From Methylobacterium sp. NMS14P (GTDB lineage: Bacteria; Pseudomonadota; Alphaproteobacteria; Rhizobiales; Beijerinckiaceae), in assembly GCF_028583545.1 (NCBI RefSeq), contig NZ_CP087106.1, positions 2,774,501 through 2,838,500 of the forward strand: a stretch of 64,000 bases of DNA. Reading direction: 5' to 3'. The first letter of the stretch is position 1; the number at the start of each line of letters is the position of its first letter. Below, piece by piece: positions 26,453 to 61,011 of this stretch. A model generated the notes under the pieces. It did no database searches. It was not told the origin of the DNA and worked only from the letters and a program-made list of their open reading frames with translations. Position numbers and translations under genes: made by a program.

Positions 26453-26713
26453 GTGGCTGTCCCATCCAAATTCCCATCGCCTAGAGGCGCCCGGCCACGT
26501 CCGGACACCCGCCCGCGCGTACTGGCGGCGCTAACATCCGAGCCGGCAACCGCCGTCGAGATCGCTGAGCGTGCAGGTATCCCCGGCCGGGAGCGCGGTA
26601 TGCACGCCGCTCGGGCCTTGGCGCGCCTGAAGGCCGACGGCCTCGCGGTCAGCGAGCTGCGCCGGAACGTCACCCGGTGGTGGAAAGCCGGCGATGCGCC
26701 CCCTCAGGCGTAG
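26453..26713 (+). CDS. Winged-helix-like small protein, 86 aa
   Basis: A basic N-terminal tail ([16 protein letters not shown]) precedes a likely helix-turn-helix ([34 protein letters not shown]), ending with a wing-like [11 protein letters not shown]. This resembles MarR/ArsR-type mini regulators. The GTG start lies 2 nt after the previous stop. The 3' end overlaps umuC by 10 nt, convergent. Confidence 0.55.
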
Positions 26714-28032
26714 GCGACCGGCAGCTCGCTGACCTGCGTCGTGTAGCGCGGCGTGCGCATCTCGAACTTCGTGGTCCAGTCCCGCCGGCTCACCAGCCCC
26801 GCCCGTGCCGGAACCACCGCGCCCCGGCCCCAGCGCGCGTTGCACGCGTCCATCGCCGCCATCAGCGGGCCCGACCGCTCGCGGTCCAACGCGCCGATCA
26901 GCGCCCGCGGGCTGTGCGACAGCGGCACGAGGTCGTTCGTGACGATCCCGGCCTTCGAGTACCGCCACGGCCGCTCGCCCGGCTCGCGCCAGGTCCGCGC
27001 CACGCCGTGCCGCGCGGCCTTGATCAGCGCCAGCGTGTCCGAGCTGTGCTCCGGCAGCTGCACCGTCGTTGAGACCGAGCGCATCGGCTCGTCCCGGTCG
27101 TGCTCGCTCGTGTGGTAGAAGACCGTCACGTGGTTGGTGCCCAGCCCCTCGCGCCGCAGCTTCTCGCCGAGCCGCGTGGCGTGTGCCGCCACCGCCTCCT
27201 CCAGCACCGCCCGCTCGGTGATCCGGCTCGAGAACGAGCGCGTCACCGCGCAGCCCTTCCGCCGCGCCGGCACCATCTCCAGCGGCAGGCAGGCCGCGCC
27301 ACGCAGCTCGTAGATGATCCGCTCGCCGACCACCGTCAGGCCCTTGCGCACCGGCCGCGGGTCGAGATCGCGCAGGTCCGCTACGCTCTCCACGCCCATC
27401 GCCTGGAGCTTGGCCAGCGACGCCCGCCCGATGCCCCAGACCTCGGCGACGTCGATCCGACACAGCCAGTGCGCGTAGGCCACCGGATCGGTCAGGTCGC
27501 ACACGCCCTCCAGCACCGGCACGGTCTTGGCGATGTGGTTGGCGAGCTTGGCCAGCGTCTTGGTCGGGCCGATGCCGACGCAGGTCGGTATGCCGGTCCA
27601 GGCCCGCACCGTGGCGCGCAGGTCTCGCGCGAGCTCGACCCGCAAGGCTGGCGCCATGTCCGACAGGTTCAGGAAGCTCTCGTCGATGGAGTAGATCTCC
27701 ACCTGCGGGCTGAACTGCCGGTACACTGCGTTGGTCCGCCCCGACATGTCGCCGTAGAGGGTGTAGTTCGACGAGAACACCCGCACCCCCTGCGCGCGGC
27801 ACATCTCGCGGATCTTGAAGTACGGGTCGCCCATCTTGATGCCGAGCGCCTTGGCCTCGCTGGTGCGGGCGATGGCGCAGCCGTCGTTGTTCGAGAGCAC
27901 GATCACCGGCACCGCGGCGAGCTTCGGGTCGAACACGCGCTCGCACGAGCAGTAGAAGCTGTTGCCGTCGATCAGCGCCACGGCGCGGCCGCCGCCGATC
28001 CGGTCGCGCCGGCGGGCCTCGGGCGTGCTCAC
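26704..28032 (-). CDS. umuC: Y-family DNA polymerase, UmuC
   Basis: A 442-aa catalytic subunit of the error-prone polymerase V. Catalytic motifs are intact: [17 protein letters not shown], metal-binding [13 protein letters not shown], and the helix-hairpin-helix [16 protein letters not shown]. The thumb and little-finger domain follows ([12 protein letters not shown]), and the end is family-typical ([15 protein letters not shown]). It inserts opposite DNA lesions at the cost of mutation, working with processed UmuD and RecA. The GTG start overlaps the umuD stop by 4 nt (GTGA), so the two are translationally coupled. Confidence 0.95.
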
Positions 28033-28481
28033 GACAGCTGCCCGCGGGCGACGTGCCAGCGGATCGAGAAGCGGACCACGCCCCAGATTGCGCCTTCGCC
28101 AAACTCGTCGACCGCGAAGGCGGGCAGCTCCGAGTTGCAGAAGGCGAGCCGGGCGACGTTGCCGTCCATCACGAGGCGCTTGCAGCTCATCTGGCCGTCG
28201 ACAGCCGCGACGACGATGCTGCCGTGGCCCGCTTTGAGGCTGCGATCGACGCAGGCGAGGTCGCGGTCGTAGATGCCGGCACCCTCCATGGACGAGCCAC
28301 TGATCCGCCACAGGAAGGTCGCGGGCGGGTTCGGCACGAGCCAGCGGGGCAGCTCGAGCGCGCCTTCCAGGAAGTCGTCGGCGGGCGACGGGAAGCCGGC
28401 GCACAGAGCCTGCCCGATCAGAGGCACGCGGACGGCATCGGGGCTGTGGATCAGCAGTTCGTCGACCCGATTGAGGTGCAC
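28029..28481 (-). CDS. umuD: UmuD, S24 self-cleaving subunit of polymerase V
   Basis: A 150-aa protein. The cleavage motif is [12 protein letters not shown], the nucleophile is in [14 protein letters not shown] and the catalytic lysine in [11 protein letters not shown], all in family order. The ATG at 28541 cannot be right because a LexA operator lies between it and the conserved domain. I therefore chose GTG 28481 ([10 protein letters not shown]), which also gives the normal UmuD length. RecA-stimulated loss of the N-terminal arm activates UmuC. A dead copy of this gene is at 20009. Confidence 0.92.
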
Positions 28482-28500
28482 CCGCGGCTCCGCCGTGTTA

Positions 28501-28515
28501 GAACGAATAAGGAAC
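28501..28515 (-). promoter_or_regulatory. LexA (SOS) box of umuDC
   Basis: GTTC-N7-GTTC on the minus strand (GAAC-N7-GAAC on the plus strand), an exact match to the direct-repeat operator of alphaproteobacterial LexA. It ends 19 nt before the GTG of umuD, as expected for SOS-controlled umuDC. Confidence 0.9.
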
Positions 28516-28678
28516 AAAGCTGATGGGCGGGCCGTGTTCAATCTGCGCGCAGAATGTTTCTTCCGCGCCGGTGGACGAATGTGAACTCGGGTCGAAAACG
28601 TCAGTCACGGCCGAGCGTTACGCGCCTCGCGCGGTCGGCGAACAGCGTTTGGCGTGTCGGAGCGGGCGGGAGACGACG

Positions 28679-29255: not shown

Positions 29256-29647
29256 CTACCGCGCCACTCCACGCGCTGCGAACTCCCAGACGGGCGGCCC
29301 CCAGGTCTGCCCGGGCTTGGTGCGGTAGCCGGAGAATCGATCGAACACGATCCGGTCCTGCTCGACGCCGATCACCGGGCTGTCGTTGACCATCAGCGCG
29401 CCGGCATACTCCACGCGCAGGAAGCCATGCTCCGGATAGCGCCGAAGAGCTGCGGCGCGGTCCAGCCCAGCCGGTGCGCCTCGGTGCCGTGCTGGTCGAT
29501 GAAGGCCAACGCGTTCACGCGCATCGCCGCCCATCGCGTCGGTGTCAGATACCGGCACGGCGAGGCGTGCTCGGACAGGCGCTCGATCTGGTCGCGCCAG
29601 GTGGCGACGGCGGGCGGGAGGTCGGTAGGGACGGGGTTAGCCGACAT
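29256..29647 (-). pseudogene. Frameshifted hypothetical protein
   Basis: The N-terminal frame (from ATG 29647) reads WRDQIERLSEHASPCRYLTP and GTEAHRLGWTAPQLFGA; the C-terminal frame continues YPEHGFLRVEYAGALMVNDS and ends at 29256. Homologous small proteins carry these two parts in one chain, as a C-terminal wHTH-like GWT-LFG motif followed by a beta domain. A one-base loss near 29435 (in GGCGCTAT on the minus strand) breaks it. Confidence 0.65.
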
Positions 29648-29743
29648 AAGAACTGCATAGCGATGTTGAACTGGGAGCAACGGCTACGATAAACACTGGC
29701 GTCGCAAACGCTACGAGCAGAATGTCAAGCATGGATTGCGGTG

Positions 29744-30421
29744 CTATTTGTCGATTGGTTGTGCAGTACCATTCGCGGCGTTGCGTTTCTCTATCTCAGA
29801 TCTGGACCATTGCAGAAGGTCCACCTCTTTGGAGAAATCTTGAGTGCTTACAAATCCAGAAGAAACTGCCTTCAACAAATTCTTAGCCGCTCTATTTGCT
29901 TTAGATCTTGATATTCTTGACGACCTATTGGTCATGACATCGGCATGATTCGGCCTCTTTTCCAGTCCAGTGGCATAAATCGAAAATGCCGTCGCTATCT
30001 CTGTCGGTTTTCCTTTGACTTCAATTTCATGTTCTATTTTTTTGATTGCAGTGACGGGCAGTAGCACAATTCCATACAGCGCCCGCAGTGTACCATCCGA
30101 CGCTGTGGGGCGCTCTTTCAGCATTTCCCTAATCGTTTCATTGTACTCTTCTGCCTCTGCTCTCGCGCGGCGCAAGCATGACGACCCGAACGTCGCTGCA
30201 TCCGAAAACAAGGCGGACGTAACTCTCTTGGACCCATCTTCATCTGCGGTATGAGTAGGGTCCATGACCAATCTTACAAGGACTTCGTCTTTCGCTACCG
30301 GCTCCGAGCAGAAGCGGGAAACTTGCTGCGTCTCACAGGAACATTCCGGTGCGTTTCGGTCTATGAAGTCGGCGCGCGTTTCATCGTCGGGTGCGCTCTC
30401 AAAGATCTGAATGCAACTCAT
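29744..30421 (-). CDS. Unknown protein, third gene of the TIGR04255 operon
   Basis: A 225-aa protein, distinctly AT-richer than its surroundings. The N-terminal third has a Cys cluster (ECSCETQQVSRFC), then DEVLVRLVMDPTHT and a helix (FGSSCLRRARAEAEEYNETI). The middle is LYGIVLLPVTAIKKIE, and RPNHADVM near residue 160 resembles the His-Ala-Asp ending seen in some uncharacterised small proteins. The C-terminus is basic and helical. Its ATG is 3 nt after the stop of the preceding gene (TAAGCTATG), so it is translationally coupled. I do not recognise the family. Confidence 0.7.
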   Translation of the reverse strand: MSCIQIFESAPDDETRADFIDRNAPECSCETQQVSRFCSEPVAKDEVLVRLVMDPTHTADEDGSKRVTSALFSDAATFGSSCLRRARAEAEEYNETIREMLKERPTASDGTLRALYGIVLLPVTAIKKIEHEIEVKGKPTEIATAFSIYATGLEKRPNHADVMTNRSSRISRSKANRAAKNLLKAVSSGFVSTQDFSKEVDLLQWSRSEIEKRNAANGTAQPIDK

Positions 30422-30424
30422 AGC

Positions 30425-30919
30425 TTAAGGGCGAGCGCTAATCCCGAGCTTTTCCGCAATCGAAGCAGGCATGGTGCGTCCGTCGAAATGCTCGACATCC
30501 TCATCCCATTCGTCTTCGCCGATATCAATGTTTGCCGCAATCACCCCGTCGGGGAAGAACTCAAATTGCGCATCAATATTGTCCGACCTGATACCAATAA
30601 CCGCATTCCCGTCGGCAAAAACCTGAGCAGAAAATCTGAAAGATCTACGCGCCCCAGACGCCAGTCCGAGAAACTCTTCCGCCAGCTTGAAGCTGACCGG
30701 ATTGGCATTGTGCGCGTGCCGCCTGAAACGGCGAAGCACCGCCAGAGTTGAATGAACGCTTGGCACCGCGGCAGTTGGAAGGGGAATCACGTTAGAAGTA
30801 AAATCTTCCCCTGCTTTCGGTCGGGAGAAAGCTAATCGGCCAACCTGGCCCGCTGACGAAACGGACGCCGTGCTGAAGCCCTCGCTCGGATCATAGAGGC
30901 CCTTCGGCTGCGCATACAT
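30425..30919 (-). CDS. Unknown protein, second gene of the TIGR04255 operon
   Basis: A 164-aa protein. A Ser/Pro-rich first third (LYDPSEGFSTASVSSAGQVG) precedes an ordered domain. The order there is VHSTLAVLRRFRRHAHNANP, then beta-rich RRSFRFSAQVFADGNAVIGI and IDAQFEFFPDGVIAANIDIG, ending in an acidic stretch (EDEWDEDVEHFDG). ATG 30919 is 10 nt after the TIGR04255 stop; ATG 30982 is possible but would overlap that gene by 53 nt. No family recognised. Confidence 0.65.
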   Translation of the reverse strand: MYAQPKGLYDPSEGFSTASVSSAGQVGRLAFSRPKAGEDFTSNVIPLPTAAVPSVHSTLAVLRRFRRHAHNANPVSFKLAEEFLGLASGARRSFRFSAQVFADGNAVIGIRSDNIDAQFEFFPDGVIAANIDIGEDEWDEDVEHFDGRTMPASIAEKLGISARP

Positions 30920-30929
30920 CCCGAGCGTC

Positions 30930-31778
30930 CTAAAGGCCGATTCTTTCGGCGGCTTCCGGAGTGATAATGCGACGGAGCTCATCCTTCAATGCGGCATGCT
31001 GTTGATTTAGCGCGTCCAGCACCACAGGCACCTCCCAGCCCCGGCCTATCGTTCTCCCATATCCTGGCGCGTTCACCATGTCTTGCGTCATCGTGTATAT
31101 TATAAATGAGCGCGTTTGCCGCCCTTCCTTGCCAGGAAAATCCGCAAAATCAATTTTTGTCTGGTAAAGCCGCCTTATCTTATCGGACAATCGTTCGAAA
31201 TGCCCGGCATGCGAATGCCATGGCTCGATCGAGCTGCTGCCAGCTGAAGCCACCCAGGGGGCCTCTGCGGATATGAGTTTAGTGGCATCCAAGACGCGAG
31301 CCTCAACTAAATCAAACCTATCCCAGTACTCAAGCTGTATGAAAAATGGCGGAGCCTCAAATACATAATATTTATTAATTCTCGACAGGACAGACTCGAT
31401 TCGTCCTATAAATGGTCTCCATCTAACATACTGATTGCTCTGTATTTGAATCGAATCCTTGTTGATGGAAATCCGCTCGGTCACGCGGTCATCAGCGTCT
31501 ACCAAACTGAAATTCAAACCCATAATTTGTTGCGACGAAACGGCAGGGGAATTCAAGGCCACCCCAAGCTGCGTACCGTTGAAATTTACTGCGAGGCCGA
31601 ATGCTGGGCTCGGCTGGCCGATGTCTAGATCTCGGCCTAAGGCCCAGATTGCTGGCCGCATCGCTGCCCACTGGCCTTCGGAGACTGGATGTCCGAATTG
31701 GATCGTAGCCTGGACAGACACAATCGCATGCGCCTCATTGAATGGGGCGAAACCACCCAAAGTTGGCTCAGGCATCAT
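30930..31778 (-). CDS. TIGR04255 family protein
   Basis: A 282-aa protein, close to the family average of about 270. The N-terminal signature FNEAHAIVSVQATIQFGHPV and the helical C-terminus VVLDALNQQHAALKDELRRI leading to a final EAAERIGL fit the sporadically distributed TIGR04255 family. In that family the first strand carries an E-A-x-x-x-I-x-F pattern and the last helix ends with an AF or RR-IIT motif. Function is unknown; members occur in islands and beside defence genes. It heads a three-gene AT-richer operon inside prophage cargo. Codon use is unlike the phage genes around it. Confidence 0.75.
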   Translation of the reverse strand: MMPEPTLGGFAPFNEAHAIVSVQATIQFGHPVSEGQWAAMRPAIWALGRDLDIGQPSPAFGLAVNFNGTQLGVALNSPAVSSQQIMGLNFSLVDADDRVTERISINKDSIQIQSNQYVRWRPFIGRIESVLSRINKYYVFEAPPFFIQLEYWDRFDLVEARVLDATKLISAEAPWVASAGSSSIEPWHSHAGHFERLSDKIRRLYQTKIDFADFPGKEGRQTRSFIIYTMTQDMVNAPGYGRTIGRGWEVPVVLDALNQQHAALKDELRRIITPEAAERIGL

Positions 31779-31949
31779 GCAACCCGTTGTCTCGCTAGGC
31801 GCAGCAGTTAATGGCCAACCTCTCCTAGGCTATCTCGAAAGGCGTTAACAGCACCTCGTAACTGCGGGCTGAGCGAGCTGGCTTATAGGCCCATTCATCC
31901 GCTCGGCCCCGCCCCGATCTGCTCACGGGGCGGGGGAGCAGTTAGCCGA

Positions 31950-32210
31950 TCAAAAGCGGCGCACGTAATCTCCGAGTTCGAGGCCCATCCCTAGTTGAAA
32001 ACCAAAGTGCCATGCCCGGACTTCAGCAGTTGGCATGCCGGCTTTCAGATGCTCCTGCGCCACGATGATTCCGACCTCCTCGAGCCGGCGCACGACGCCC
32101 TGAACGCTGCCTGTCTCCGGGCTCAGCGTCTTGATCATCTCGCTCGCCGCAAGCCGGCCAGCTTTCTCGCCTCGAGCGCTGGGAGCGTTCGGCTCGCTAT
32201 GCGGCGGCAT
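31950..32210 (-). CDS. Hypothetical protein, 86 aa
   Basis: A disordered N-terminus is followed by helices (KAGRLAASEMIKTLSPETGS, VQGVVRRLEEVGIIVAQEHL) and an aromatic end (AWHFGFQLGMGLELGDYVRR). A frame is open to 32267, but ATG 32210 gives the compact protein. No family recognised. Confidence 0.5.
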   Translation of the reverse strand: MPPHSEPNAPSARGEKAGRLAASEMIKTLSPETGSVQGVVRRLEEVGIIVAQEHLKAGMPTAEVRAWHFGFQLGMGLELGDYVRRF

Positions 32211-32234
32211 GGGTCTCGATTGCCTCACCTGTGG

Positions 32235-32292
32235 GAGCCGATACGCAACCCGGCTCGGTGGCAGCATGGCGGACGGCGGTTACCGGGCCGTG
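32235..32292 (+). repeat. 58-bp direct repeat, copy 1
   Basis: GAGCCGATACGCAAC, then ATGGC and GGCGGTTACCGGGCCGTG, the same blocks and total length as copy 2 at 33612-33669. It overlaps the 3' end of the small gene at 32280. Confidence 0.7.
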
Positions 32293-32528
32293 TCTGCGAT
32301 AGGTGGATCGGTATCGCGCACGATGGAAGGAAGCCGCCGAGCCGACCAGATGACGTTGCCGCCATCATCTCGGAGCAATGCGCAACCAGATCGTCCGGCA
32401 AGTAGGAGCTCGAACCTGGTTTCGGCCTCGTCGGCAGCCTGGGCGTCCGTAGACGCCTCGAGCTGCTCAGTGGCGACCGACAGCCCGCTTGCGCAGCGCC
32501 TATAGACGGAGCATTCGAGATGGAACAC
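32280..32528 (-). CDS. Small protein of the EASTDA-VIWSxRR type
   Basis: Contains EQLEASTDAQAADEAETR and GGNVIWSARR, matching the neighbour at 33340 (RELEASTDAEAVQIAQAS, ASERVIWSLRR). Such short proteins are numerous in methylobacteria and have no known role. The start is uncertain: GTG 32528 or an upstream codon to 32567. Confidence 0.5.
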   Translation of the reverse strand: MFHLECSVYRRCASGLSVATEQLEASTDAQAADEAETRFELLLAGRSGCALLRDDGGNVIWSARRLPSIVRDTDPPIADTAR

Positions 32529-32713: not shown

Positions 32714-32878
32714 ATGCCCAAACTTCTCCGGCGGTTCGTTCGCGACGAGACTGGCGCCACCGCCATCGAATATGGAATGATCGCCGCCCTGATCGCTGTC
32801 ATCATCATCGCCTCGCTGCGGCTCGTAGGATCGCGGCTCACCTCCAAATTCAGCGCGATATCCGGTAATCTGAACTGA
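32714..32878 (+). CDS. Flp-family type IVb pilin, 54 aa
   Basis: A basic leader (PKLLRRFVRDETG) precedes ATAIEYGMIAALIAVIIIAS, the hallmark of Flp/Fap pilins with Glu at +5 of the processed form and the following Tyr; cleavage by a TadV-type prepilin peptidase is expected near the Gly before ATAIEYG. Flp pilins build Tad pili for surface attachment. No tad assembly genes are nearby, so this is an orphan pilin riding in the prophage cargo. Confidence 0.88.
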   Translation: MPKLLRRFVRDETGATAIEYGMIAALIAVIIIASLRLVGSRLTSKFSAISGNLN

Positions 32879-33093
32879 TCCGCGCTGGTGGATCGTAGTG
32901 AGCCTGTACCGGCGCTTCCGCCTTGCTCTGTCTTGATCTGCTCACGGGGGGCCTGATCTCCCGCTAGCGTCTCGCAATCGGAACGGCCAAAGGCCAGGTC
33001 GCTATTCGGTCGCACCCAGCCCTAGGATCAAAACTCCAGCTCCTGCGTCATTGGCTGGGCGGCTTTGGGCCGCGTTTCTAGCCTGCAGGCTTT

Positions 33094-56392: not shown

Positions 56393-57454
56393 TCAGGCGG
56401 GGGCGTGCTGCCCCATCTCGGAATCGAGGCCGGCCAGACGGGCGTCGGCGTCGAGGATCTCGTGCTTCGCGGTCAGCGCCGGCAGGTCGGCGGCGAACTG
56501 GTCGCGCAGCTTCTGCTCCGGGGTCGGCTCGGGCGCGGGCTTCGTGCCGCCCTCGCCCGGCTTCGGGTCGGCCGCGTCGGTCCGCCCCTTGAACCCGAGC
56601 GCCTTGGCCAGCCGGTTGAGCAAGCCCTCGTCGGTCTCCAGCGCGTCGATCACGCGCTCGGCCTTCGACGGCTTCACCGGCACCAGCGCCGGGGCGCCGC
56701 CCTCGCCGGCCTCGACCGCGAAGGTCTTGCCCTGGAAGGTCACCGTGGTGCGCTCGCCGGTGGCCTGCCGGTGGCTGGCCTCGAACGCCTTGCGCGGGAC
56801 CAGCAGCCCCTTCTCGATCGACCAGGTGTCGAGCACCTCCTCAATGAGCTCCCGGGCCAGGACGTCGCCCGCAGCAGCCGCCTTCGCCAGCGCGGCGGGG
56901 TTCGCTGGCACGCAGCAGGGCGAGCACTCGTACAGATCGGCCTCGTGGATCATGTAGCCGGGGTAGAAGTAGCTGCCCTGCTGGTCCTCCGGCACCTCGC
57001 GGCGCTCGATCGACAGCGGCATGAAGCCGATGGAGCAGGCCCGGATCGAGCCGGCCTCGAAATGCACGTCCAGGCGGTCGGCCATGACGTCGCCCTTCAC
57101 GAGGGTCAGCGTGCCCTCGGTGCGCTTCGGCCGGCCGCCGAGGGACTTCTCCAGCTCGGACCACGTGCCCACCGGCGGGTCACCGGCGCGATGCGACCAC
57201 GGCGCGACCGGGTTCTTCTCGAACTCGGTGGTGTTCAGCCCGGCCTGGACGACGATGTCGCGATCGCGGTCCTCGATCTCCGCCGACATGACGAAGCGCA
57301 TGGTGCGCGCCACCTTGTCGTAGCCCGCCTTGCTGAGACCGGACGGGGCGGCCTTGATGATGACGCCCGAATCCCGGGCAAAGTGCTTGCGCTCCACGCC
57401 GCCGTAGCCACGCGAGCCGAGGTATTCGTCGATCGAGACGCGCTTCGAGGCCAT
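56393..57454 (-). CDS. Prohead protease, HK97 U35 family
   Basis: A 353-aa protein. RTMRFVMSAEIEDRDRDIVV, FEKNPVAPWSHRAGDPPVGT and the active region LDVHFEAGSIRACSIGFMPL are typical of the prohead serine protease, with the His near residue 130 and the Ser in CSIGF. The C-terminal 120 residues are a charged extension that may act as scaffold. It trims the capsid N-terminus during maturation. Confidence 0.88.
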   Translation of the reverse strand: MASKRVSIDEYLGSRGYGGVERKHFARDSGVIIKAAPSGLSKAGYDKVARTMRFVMSAEIEDRDRDIVVQAGLNTTEFEKNPVAPWSHRAGDPPVGTWSELEKSLGGRPKRTEGTLTLVKGDVMADRLDVHFEAGSIRACSIGFMPLSIERREVPEDQQGSYFYPGYMIHEADLYECSPCCVPANPAALAKAAAAGDVLARELIEEVLDTWSIEKGLLVPRKAFEASHRQATGERTTVTFQGKTFAVEAGEGGAPALVPVKPSKAERVIDALETDEGLLNRLAKALGFKGRTDAADPKPGEGGTKPAPEPTPEQKLRDQFAADLPALTAKHEILDADARLAGLDSEMGQHAPA

Positions 57455-58878
57455 CAGGCTGCTCCTGCGGAATGGACGAGCCGCGGGCCCGCCTTGCCAG
57501 CGTTGTTGTCCGGGCTCTCGCCCTCACCCGCGCCCGGGTTGGTCGGCTTCTGGCCGGTGCCGGCGTGGATCACCTGCCCATCCGGGCCGATCAGGCTCAT
57601 GTTGACCGGCACCATGCGCTGGTCGCCGCCGGCCGGGAGCGGGTTGAGGCGGAACGGCAGGACCTCGCGACCCTCGTCGAAGGTCATCAGGCCGTCCTTC
57701 ATGCCCATGTCGACGAGCTTCGACAGGGCTTCCAGATCGGTCGCCATCAGCGCGACCTGATCGAACTGGGGCCCGAAGATCGGCCACTCCTTTCGGGTGA
57801 ACAGGGAGAGGCGGAAGTTCTCCTGGATGCCGTGGGCCAGCGGGTGCAGGCAGTCGCTGTAATACTGCCGGTTCATCGCCGACATGTTGTTGTAAGCGAC
57901 GGCCTCCAGCGCGAAGATCTTGTGCGGCGGGCAGTTCATGAGCCCGCAGACGCGCATGATCTGCTGGTTGAAGCTGTCCTTGCTCTCGGCCTGCACCGCA
58001 TTGATGGCGATGCTTTTGGCTTCGAGGCCGGCTTCCAGCAGGATCGGATCGCCATTCGCGACCGCCCGACGGGTCCGCTCGGTGAGCTGCTGCTTCAGCC
58101 GGCGGAACGCCGCGTCGCTCTCGTCCTTGTTCCCGAAGATCTGGCTCGTCTGGTAGACGATCGGCTGCTTGCCATCGTTGCCGAAGATGTTCCGCTGAAA
58201 TTCGGCGATGGCGGAGACGAGGTCGAAGATCGGGCCGCCCAGCGCGAAGTTCGACAGGCCGTACAGACCGTCCCATAGCCGTCCGCGCAGGTGGATGATG
58301 CGGTCCGCCGGCACGACCATGTACGAGTCGCCGAGCTGCGCCTCCTCGAACAGGTTGCCCGCGTAGATCTCGTAGAACAGCTTGCCGGAAGTCGAGACCC
58401 GCGCCCGGCACCGCGCCGGCTGGATCGGGATGAGCGCCTCGACCGTGCCGTCGACCGTGATGTCCTTGTAGAGGTAGGCGTTCTGCGCGAGCTCGATGTG
58501 CAGCCCGACCATGCGCCACAGCTCGGGCCACGTGTGCCACGGGTTCGGCCGGGTCATCAGCAACTCGGCGATCGGGTGCTGATCCGCCTCGACCATGGTC
58601 CAGCCGCGGCCGCGGCGGCGCCACAGCAGCATCTCGGCCTTGGACAGGTCGCGCGCCTTCACGTCCGCACACATGATCGCCAGGGCGACGCCGACGGCAT
58701 GCTGCCCGTAGAACGACCGGCCACCGCGGCCGCCCATCCCGAGCAGGTCGCCGACGTCGTGCCAGCCGATGTCGTCCCACCCCTCAGCGCTGTCCGTGCG
58801 CAGCGGGCCCGGCACGGTGGCGAGGTCCTGGGCGGTCAGCCCGGACCGCTGCCACATCTCGGACTCGGTTTCGCTCAT
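57454..58878 (-). CDS. Portal protein, HK97 type
   Basis: A 474-aa protein. IMCADVKARDLSKAEMLLWR, HPIAELLMTRPNPWHTWPEL, the conserved GLIPIQP-like EALIPIQPARCRARV, SNFALGGPIFDLVSAIAEFQ and the stem region LMNCPPHKIFALEAVAYNNM show the portal fold. It forms the dodecameric ring through which DNA is packed. The start overlaps the terminase stop by 4 nt (ATGA). Confidence 0.92.
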   Translation of the reverse strand: MSETESEMWQRSGLTAQDLATVPGPLRTDSAEGWDDIGWHDVGDLLGMGGRGGRSFYGQHAVGVALAIMCADVKARDLSKAEMLLWRRRGRGWTMVEADQHPIAELLMTRPNPWHTWPELWRMVGLHIELAQNAYLYKDITVDGTVEALIPIQPARCRARVSTSGKLFYEIYAGNLFEEAQLGDSYMVVPADRIIHLRGRLWDGLYGLSNFALGGPIFDLVSAIAEFQRNIFGNDGKQPIVYQTSQIFGNKDESDAAFRRLKQQLTERTRRAVANGDPILLEAGLEAKSIAINAVQAESKDSFNQQIMRVCGLMNCPPHKIFALEAVAYNNMSAMNRQYYSDCLHPLAHGIQENFRLSLFTRKEWPIFGPQFDQVALMATDLEALSKLVDMGMKDGLMTFDEGREVLPFRLNPLPAGGDQRMVPVNMSLIGPDGQVIHAGTGQKPTNPGAGEGESPDNNAGKAGPRLVHSAGAA

Positions 58879-60608
58879 GCAGCGCCTGCCAGCCCACGTG
58901 TGAGGTACGGGTTTGCGCGCGTGACGCGCCCGCCCGTGTCGGGGGTCCCGGCCTCGTTCGCGAGGCGGGCCGCATTCGCGTTGATCGCCGCGTCGAAGCC
59001 GTCGATGGAGGCCTTCGACCCGGGCTTGGCCTTCTTGGGCAGGACGTTATCGTTCGCGTCCCAGTGCCCAACGACGTTGCCGGCCATCCACGAGGTGACC
59101 GGATTGGCGTCGTGCTGGAGCCGGGCCGGGTCCTTGTGCCGGGTCACCAGGTCGTCGGTCGACCGGGTTATGTGCGAGGCGGTCTTCGAGACCGAGTAGA
59201 CGGTGTGCCCGCGCTCCTCGATCGCGCCGGCCAGGAAGTCGGCCTGGAAGCGGTCGACGCCGAACGCCCGCACGTTGTGCCCCTCGATCATGCCCAGCAC
59301 GTCCCCGAGGATGGTCGGGTGATGGACGTGGCTGCCGCGCGTCGTGGTGAGGTGCTTGGCCTGCTCCCACGCCGTGAACTGGCCCGCGTACCGATCGTCC
59401 TTGAACCGCGGCGAGCGCTCCGGCAGCCAGTACCGGAACACCGCATAGAGCACGTCGCCCACCTCGATGATGAAGCAGGCCGCGTTCAGATCCGAGGCGC
59501 TGGCGAGGTCGACCCCGACGTACATCGGGAAGCCCTTCAGCGCCGCGAGCGTGAGCCTCGCATCTCCGCAGGCGTCCCAGGCCTCCACCGAGAACAGGTT
59601 GCCGGCGGCCCGGGACCAGAGGTTCAGCCGGGTCCGCTTGTACTCCTGGAGCTTCGCCTCGCTCTTGCGGGCCTCGCGCTCCTCGGTCTCCAGAGAGGTC
59701 GGGTTCAGCGACACCCCGTAGAGCGGGTTGAGCTTCTCGACGATGGCCGGGTCGAACCGGCGCTCCTCGTCCTCCTTGTCGCCCGCGTACATGGCGACGA
59801 ACACGCGGTCCGCCCGGAGCTTGCCCTCGAGCACCTGCTGATCCGACCGCCAACCGTCGTAGGCCGGGCCCGCCGCGTCGCGGCCCGCGGTCGAGATCCC
59901 CAGCCACAACGGCTGCTGCCGGGCGCCCTGAGCGCTCTTCAGCACGCCAATGACGTCCTGATTCTGCGCGTGGACCTCCTCGGCCAGCACCACGTGCGGG
60001 TTGAGGCCGTCGAGGTTGGGCGCCTTGCCCGCCAGGAGCTTCAGTTCCGCGCCGGTGCGCCGGAACCGGATGCTCTCCGTCGTGTCCTTAGCCTGAAGCC
60101 AGTCCTTGAGCTCCCGCTCCTTGTCCAGCGTCTGCCGGATAGCGAGGTACGGGATGTCTGCCTGCTTCTCCGAGCCCGCGGCCACGCACCCCTCGGCGCC
60201 CGGCTCGTCCTCGTAGTTCAGGCAGTAGAGCACGATCCCGACCGAGAGCGCCGTCTTGGCGTTCTTCCGCGGGACCCAGAACGCCACCTCCCGAACCCAG
60301 CGACGGCCGGTGTCCCGCTCCCGGAATCCGAACGTCGCCGCGATCCACCAGCACTGCACCGGCTCCAGCACGATCGTGCCGGCGAACCCCTTGATGTGCG
60401 GTAGCGTCTCGATGAACGCGCAGGGGTCGTTGGCCCGGTCCGCGTCGAAGATGAAGTCGCTGCTCGGCCGCTTCGCCTCGTGCAGCATGTCAAGGAAGCG
60501 CTGGCAGCCGAGCCGCTCCCAGCGGCAGGCCACCACCGCGCCCTGTACGACGGCCTGGGCGTACCATTCGGCCATCCCGGCATAATCCGGGATCTCCCTC
60601 CCCTTCAC
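58875..60608 (-). CDS. terL: Terminase large subunit
   Basis: A 577-aa packaging motor. The ATPase P-loop-like motif VPRKNAKTALSVGI lies at about residue 110, the acidic Walker B in HVVLAEEVHAQNQDVIG, and the nuclease Asp in YVGVDLASASDLNAACFI with a later acidic cluster (GVDRFQADFLAG). It resembles HK97 and lambda-like siphophage TerL. Start chosen at GTG 60608 because the frame upstream lies inside terS; ATG 60575 is another option. Confidence 0.9.
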   Translation of the reverse strand: MKGREIPDYAGMAEWYAQAVVQGAVVACRWERLGCQRFLDMLHEAKRPSSDFIFDADRANDPCAFIETLPHIKGFAGTIVLEPVQCWWIAATFGFRERDTGRRWVREVAFWVPRKNAKTALSVGIVLYCLNYEDEPGAEGCVAAGSEKQADIPYLAIRQTLDKERELKDWLQAKDTTESIRFRRTGAELKLLAGKAPNLDGLNPHVVLAEEVHAQNQDVIGVLKSAQGARQQPLWLGISTAGRDAAGPAYDGWRSDQQVLEGKLRADRVFVAMYAGDKEDEERRFDPAIVEKLNPLYGVSLNPTSLETEEREARKSEAKLQEYKRTRLNLWSRAAGNLFSVEAWDACGDARLTLAALKGFPMYVGVDLASASDLNAACFIIEVGDVLYAVFRYWLPERSPRFKDDRYAGQFTAWEQAKHLTTTRGSHVHHPTILGDVLGMIEGHNVRAFGVDRFQADFLAGAIEERGHTVYSVSKTASHITRSTDDLVTRHKDPARLQHDANPVTSWMAGNVVGHWDANDNVLPKKAKPGSKASIDGFDAAINANAARLANEAGTPDTGGRVTRANPYLTRGLAGAA

Positions 60609-60630
60609 CTCGACGAGCGCGAACCGCTCG

Positions 60631-61011
60631 TCAGCGACGCTGCGGGAAACCGAACCACGCGAACCGGTTGATGGGCGCTTCCTTCGGCGCGCTGATCGGC
60701 TTGTCGAGATCATCGAGCTTCAGCCGGGCCTGCGCCTTCTGGAGGTTCGTGAACCAAGACGCCCGCGGGGTCAGGCCCTCGGTGGAGATGCGCTGGATTT
60801 GGTCGAAGCAGCTCGCGTAGGCCGAGAGCGCGATGTGCATGTCCTTCGACAGGCGGCCCGCATTCCAGATCAGCCGTCCGGTGCTCTCGTATTCCGCCCG
60901 GGCCGCATCGGTGCGGAGCGGGAAACTGCACGGCGGGAATGCGCGATAGCCGGGATGCGCCAGAACCGTCGGGTCGCCCTGGCCTACTTGCGCGAGCGAG
61001 GGCTTCGGCAT
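60631..61011 (-). CDS. terS: Terminase small subunit, P27 family
   Basis: A 126-aa protein that recognises the packaging site. AEYESTGRLIWNAGRLSKDM, HIALSAYASCFDQIQRISTE and the C-terminal LDKPISAPKEAPINRFAWFG fit the P27 family. It ends 23 nt before the terL start. Confidence 0.82.
   Translation of the reverse strand: MPKPSLAQVGQGDPTVLAHPGYRAFPPCSFPLRTDAARAEYESTGRLIWNAGRLSKDMHIALSAYASCFDQIQRISTEGLTPRASWFTNLQKAQARLKLDDLDKPISAPKEAPINRFAWFGFPQRR

Follow-up and report, generated by a model that had tools for sequence, protein, structure and literature searches.

The three minus-strand genes that lie together near the middle of the window (the whole stretch of DNA that was analysed, 64 kb) form a real, conserved and undescribed three-gene module and not a chance cluster. 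The module recurs in other genomes with the same gene order, its three proteins diverge together, and its second and third proteins show a remote kinship to PDC-M32, a phage-defence candidate. The second and third genes are moreover found behind different first genes or first parts, and we suggest below that the trio may be a defence cartridge.

A conserved three-gene operon

Gene 1 (30930..31778, minus strand, 282 aa) belongs to the TIGR04255 family, gene 2 (30425..30919, minus strand, 164 aa) to a family that we call WDG-domain, and gene 3 (29744..30421, minus strand, 225 aa) to a family named S-x-x-R / H-A after its conserved residues. The strand, the three lengths and the junctions of 10 nt and 3 nt are as an earlier note on this DNA had reported them. 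The longest frame of gene 2 (30425-30982, 185 aa) overlaps gene 1; the start at an inner ATG, giving 164 aa, is the likely one because close relatives start with MYA. One database entry for gene 3 (P0004) has a late start and 173 aa, and the longer form given here is backed by most relatives. Conserved stretches in gene 1 are EYWDRF and WHSH-x-G-x-F. Hydrophobic N-terminal stretches (19-residue mean > 1.6) were seen in 5 of 21 gene-2 proteins. Promoter and terminator scans gave no signal above shuffles.

The assignment of gene 1 to TIGR04255 held, marginally: it scored 30.6 bits by hmmscan against a curated cut-off of 30, and as a match in the genome search it fell below that value with 26.3 bits. 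For genes 2 and 3, neither Pfam nor NCBIfam nor PADLOC has a family that matches above chance, and Pfam gave no match for either partner family in the members scanned. TIGR04255 was matched by 16 of the 49 module proteins scanned, a set that included 16 gene-1 proteins. Several faint matches were judged to be due to chance, namely gene 3 to VAPB_antitox (E 0.13), the gene 3 profile to residues 533-591 of Retron Ec67 (E 0.63), the gene 2 profile to flagellin (E 0.024) and to a thioredoxin-like protein (E 0.033), and the PHROG matches (E 0.018 and above). PDB sequence searches with the profiles returned nothing usable, the gene 3 profile giving nothing above chance. Plasmids and phages contained no match for P0001 or for the gene 1 of L007, plasmids none for P0003, and phages none for the gene 1 of L148.

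Relatives are few: among about 5.8 billion proteins we counted 6 for gene 3, 5 for gene 2 and 10 for gene 1, the window's own included. Within 297 genomes sampled from the order, gene 3 is present in 7 and gene 1 in 11, the 7 all being among the 11; in all 7, genes 1 and 3 lie within about 2.1 kb of each other on the same strand. At the loci read, a same-strand gene 2 stands between them, its frame opening no more than 42 nt away from where gene 1 ends, and gene 3 follows close behind gene 2 (L010 aside, where gene 1 is broken by a frameshift and was therefore excluded from the gene-1 alignment). A further locus (L088) holds a truncated gene 1 only.

Genes 2 and 3 had entered the alignments by their position, and their membership was therefore checked with leave-one-out HMMs searched among 3,454 ORFs (22 rows for gene 3, of which 3 untestable, and 21 for gene 2, of which 2 untestable). 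All 19 testable gene 3 proteins were recognised (E <= 2.9e-9), as were all 19 testable gene 2 proteins (E <= 9.3e-5), the window proteins themselves being recovered at E 1.5e-37 (gene 2) and 1.1e-64 (gene 3). A broader gene 3 profile run on 329 genomes of the phylum gave 9 matches, which comprise the window's own, 7 that adjoin a WDG match and one broken copy (G697), discarded for its internal stop codons.

At the level of the class, TIGR04255 is present in 17 of 240 genomes, and a gene of the gene-2 family, as detected by an iterated profile, follows it at 13 of the 20 places outside the window's genome. The seed gene-2 profile alone finds 8 of these 13 at E <= 1e-3, the remaining 5 lying between 0.0018 and 7.3. 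The third genes at such places are more diverged. A set of 13, drawn from class and phylum loci with TIGR04255 and WDG genes, aligns as a whole with the gene 3 profile (hhalign probability 97.9, E 6e-13) and scores 76.8, where 60 shuffles gave no more than 14.3.

Over 18 loci the three proteins co-diverge, with Mantel r of 0.68, 0.73 and 0.73 and none of 5000 permutations as high. In five gene comparisons with close relatives, non-synonymous differences amount to 0.21-0.31 per site against 0.73-0.85 for synonymous ones, the latter near or at saturation. The claim of the earlier note that the genes make up a compact module retained for a function of its own is thus backed by co-occurrence, by the leave-one-out recognition and by the ratio of the two kinds of differences. 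The same note had named what would tell against it, that is, genes 2 and 3 never sitting beside TIGR04255 genes or an absence of conservation; this was searched for and the trio survived. An accidental grouping of AT-rich foreign genes without joint function is ruled out by the co-occurrence, the fixed order and the co-divergence, and we hold its probability to be practically nil.

AT-rich cargo in a prophage

The window contains a prophage, as previously proposed: search matches identify a terminase large subunit (58875..60713, minus strand) and a portal protein (57454..58878, minus strand). Closer to the trio, a Y-family polymerase of the UmuC/Pol IV type (26704..28404, minus strand; search match, frame probably over-long at its start) belongs to a left flank common to other genomes of the genus. 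We take the frame at 28029-28541 to be UmuD and the 54-aa product of 32714-32878 to be a Flp-like pilin, both having been named from sequence alone with no search. The gene that adjoins the trio (29393..29680, minus strand) is small, has no assigned function and is part of the shared left flank; DNA matches to its region were found in L183 and L184 (29280-29623 and 29387-29623). Upstream of the trio, a stretch at 31897..32299 recurs in other genomes of the genus, L185 among them. The left flank and short stretches on both sides recur in the genus, and no match listed from another genome extends over the trio, most of these matches being to the polymerase gene. The trio was absent from all 5 of the same-genus flank loci fetched.

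In one of these genomes (L183), the left flank runs through the small neighbour gene and then meets two AT-rich genes that form an operon and encode P-loop proteins, possibly a different cargo carried at one hotspot. The right flank of the trio was not found in L183, so that the two genomes share a left edge and not a full empty site. The L183 operon (L183:4504-7340, genome G861, same genus) encodes a 449-aa ParA-like ATPase of the KGGVGRST type and a further P-loop protein of 496 aa, for which there was no PDB sequence match.

Base composition, said in the earlier note to be unlike that of the surroundings, indeed sets the trio apart, with a GC of 0.519 where the remainder of the window has 0.692; a value as low occurs in none of the 231 segments of equal length (step 250) of the 64 kb. 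At 24 of 24 loci examined the trio has a lower GC than the DNA around it, by 11 points on average, and it has the lowest GC of the equal-length windows at 22 of the 24 (L006 and L093, where the trio reaches the contig edge, were left out). We infer that the module may be mobile in the strict sense. The repeats around the trio are one inverted pair and one 33-nt direct pair. The members of the latter (31898-31930 and 32917-32949) are 76% identical with the last 15 nt exact, and they flank two small genes upstream of the trio.

The neighbours of 25 loci were compared with family models, using 147 of the 167 called proteins (18 small ones and 2 of L143 were left out). The matches comprise integrase, tail, methyltransferase and a few restriction-type families (among the best 25 of 186 families and the best 25 of 156), and the other copies sit amid mixed phage, methylase and unannotated genes. 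These counts, made without a control set, show an island or prophage setting and not an enrichment in defence genes.

Such a setting would also suit a cluster of cargo genes that benefits the prophage by means other than defence, either by altering the physiology, stress response or surface of the lysogen or by blocking host immunity. This moron hypothesis accords with the position of the trio in prophage cargo adjoining an SOS polymerase gene and with the integrases and tail genes beside other copies; the second and third genes also occur away from prophages, namely in restriction loci and on plasmids, where a benefit to the phage only fits poorly, and we judge the hypothesis unlikely.

Kinship with PDC-M32 and the variable first part

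The PADLOC models of PDC-M32A match the C-terminal half of relatives of gene 2 (best E 2.4e-9 and 9.6e-9); they do not match genes 1 and 2 of the window, nor do the PDC-M32B models match its gene 3 (0 PADLOC families up to E 5 in both cases). Conversely, an HMM built from trio gene-2 proteins alone matches four of the five plasmid-encoded PDC-M32A-like proteins (E 7e-10 to 3e-7), the plasmid matches being from Rhodococcus and Rhizobium together with a short Streptomyces protein. The same HMM gives E 0.17 to 16 for 7 of 8 PDC-M32A-type proteins of L105-L111 and L114, and those encoded in restriction loci join the gene-2 family only after iteration. On these profile matches, gene 2 and the C-terminal region of PDC-M32A-like proteins have a domain in common, here termed WDG, a homology new here that we consider real but remote; the clade to which the window's gene 2 belongs no longer has the GWDG motif as such. 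The part of PDC-M32A that precedes the WDG domain has no detectable kinship with gene 1 (hhalign E 0.27).

The comparison of gene 3 with PDC-M32B leads to a similar picture. A first hhalign run on narrower alignments gave a weak match (probability 9.6, E 0.0034), and single PDC-M32B-like proteins are hit by the gene 3 HMM with E no better than 0.027; once both alignments are broadened, the probability is 95.4 and E 1.7e-8, and the score of 51.4 compares with a maximum of 17.7 over 60 column shuffles. By this profile-profile comparison gene 3 is homologous to PDC-M32B, a link which is also new here and which we again consider real but remote.

Within gene 3, the most conserved positions are Ser81 and Arg84 of the Ser81-Cys82-Leu83-Arg84 stretch (codons at 30170..30181, minus strand; S81 in 27 of 29 relatives, R84 in 29 of 29), His159 (codon at 29945..29947, minus strand; 29 of 29) and E46 (27 of 29). 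The Ser and the His, though not the Arg, are also invariant in the PDC-M32B-like proteins compared (11/11). The near-invariant Ser, Arg and His fit a putative active or ligand-binding site, and gene 3 may accordingly be an enzyme, but they could also be structural. The earlier note had singled out two other features of this protein. Its Cys cluster is not a conserved metal site, Cys27 and Cys29 being kept in 19 and 18 of 29 relatives; of its HAD motif the His stands, as position 159, and the motif as such does not, D161 being kept in only 13 of 29.

Full-length PDC-M32A genes of the phylum were read in their context. PDC-M32A is followed by a small gene at L105, L106 and L107, the pair lying after an hsdM-like and before an hsdS-like gene (hsd names given by reading), with one extra gene between the pair and the hsdS-like gene at L105. 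At L114, where the contig breaks off upstream, PDC-M32A has an hsdS-like gene downstream, and at L108 no small gene was seen with PDC-M32A. The small genes tested at PDC-M32A loci are PDC-M32B (E 1e-49 to 1e-55). On plasmids L158, L160 and L162, PDC-M32A-like pairs lie outside restriction loci, and the window trio has no placement in a restriction locus, its neighbours being prophage genes. The pairs enclosed between hsdM- and hsdS-like genes, and the fact that methyltransferases are the commonest PADLOC matches among the neighbours (best 25 of 186 families), would be expected if the two genes were an accessory to DNA modification or restriction, that is, if they regulated or repaired restriction-modification, the TIGR04255 form doing so in trans. 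We hold this to be quite improbable, since no restriction genes lie beside the window trio and most trio loci and plasmid pairs are outside restriction operons.

The gene or domain in front of the WDG and gene-3 pair is not always the same. At L112 (L112:3853-6311) an AbiLi-like ATPase, which matches 43 PADLOC families with AbiLi as the best (E 3.1e-77), is followed after 3 nt by a WDG protein and a gene-3-like protein. At L111 (5467-7151 and downstream) the WDG domain ends a repeat protein, TPR-like by reading, and PDC-M32B comes next; a repeat protein with WDG, together with PDC-M32B, was noticed at L109 too. At L144 and L145 a WDG and gene-3 pair stands without a recognised first gene, amid housekeeping genes. 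In view of these arrangements, genes 2 and 3 are read as the core and gene 1 as the variable part. The arrangement at L112 might be a variant of AbiL, the L144 pair (L144:1208-2237) lies between genes reading like folP and glmM, and genes reading like an MNT/HEPN pair are found downstream at L109 and L111 (names by reading).

Similarly, TIGR04255 has other companions. No WDG gene stands beside it at 7 of the 20 class places, where other neighbours are found, and none of the 3 plasmid TIGR04255 loci has a WDG partner (0/3); with other neighbours at these 7 places and 3 plasmid genes, TIGR04255 is not bound to one partner set. At L070, L071 and L073, by reading, the gene after TIGR04255 encodes a protein that contains an HTH-like stretch, a further conserved-looking gene comes next, and there is no WDG gene. 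On a Vibrio plasmid (CP063527.1; L156:158-2105) it is followed by a hypothetical gene and a gene of the zeta toxin family.

Candidate function and comparison with known systems

We consider that the trio is most likely a sensor-adaptor-effector defence cartridge with interchangeable first parts, a reading to which we give about an even chance. The constant core would be the WDG gene 2 and the S-x-x-R/H-A gene 3, and the swappable first part could be TIGR04255 in trans, a fusion partner of WDG (a repeat array or the N-terminal part of PDC-M32A), or an AbiLi-like ATPase in trans. In this proposed division of roles, the first protein (here gene 1) would sense a signal of infection, the WDG protein would couple this sensor to the effector, and the gene 3 protein would act on a target of the host or of the phage and thereby stop phage growth or the infected cell. 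The prophage would carry the trio to protect its host from competing phages. Anti-phage defence had been put forward in the earlier note; it is a possible function that now has better grounds in the homology to PDC-M32, the AbiLi-like partner and the cargo of L183.

The same two small, tightly coupled genes, able to stand alone at L144 and L145, could on the other hand work like a toxin-antitoxin pair, gene 3 inhibiting growth, gene 2 neutralising it and the first part acting as a regulator, in which case the module would be kept by addiction and not for defence. Plasmid and prophage settings are compatible with this, as are the pairs on plasmids L157 and L158 that have VapBC or RelE-type genes in their vicinity, the MNT/HEPN-like genes of L109 and L111 (named from reading) and the zeta toxin family gene after one TIGR04255 locus; neither gene, however, is homologous above chance to a known toxin or antitoxin (the best match being the VAPB_antitox one), and the fusion of WDG to large first parts would be unusual for an antitoxin. 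We regard this explanation as rather unlikely.

The defence reading can be extended beyond the trio. More tentatively, we propose as a possibility, with the odds against it, that the WDG and S-x-x-R/H-A pair is a general adaptor-effector cartridge of immunity mounted on interchangeable sensors, of which TIGR04255 would be a large class. Should the core pair indeed operate behind a range of unrelated first parts, it would add a new example to the shared effector units of bacterial immunity. TIGR04255 gains two defined partner families tied to a published defence candidate, which makes a testable system, and the three-gene signature would let genome scans detect the module.

The names of the PDC families reportedly go back to a preprint in which Payne and co-workers deal with defences embedded in immune systems. 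In PADLOC, PDC-M32 counts as a phage-defence candidate, and only a candidate. The one paper naming PDC-M32 in the literature searched (PMC12429752) lists PDC-M32A and PDC-M32B, by PADLOC, for a Sinorhizobium meliloti prophage and describes the two as parts of a hypothetical defence system. TIGR04255 was not named in any paper of the literature searched, and the portion of the DefensePredictor main text consulted (PMC13092281) does not mention it.

Three known systems are close enough for comparison. The AbiL type, through its ATPase AbiLi, provides a different first part before the WDG and gene-3 pair, at one locus only (L112); the partner there is an ATPase, whereas the window has none. PDC-M32 has the same gene order as the trio, with a WDG part and then a small protein, but consists of two genes where the trio has three. 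Finally, TIGR04255, an NCBIfam family described as 'sporadic' whose cut-off gene 1 passes narrowly, is otherwise only a single named family, and appears here with WDG partners at 13 of 20 class places.
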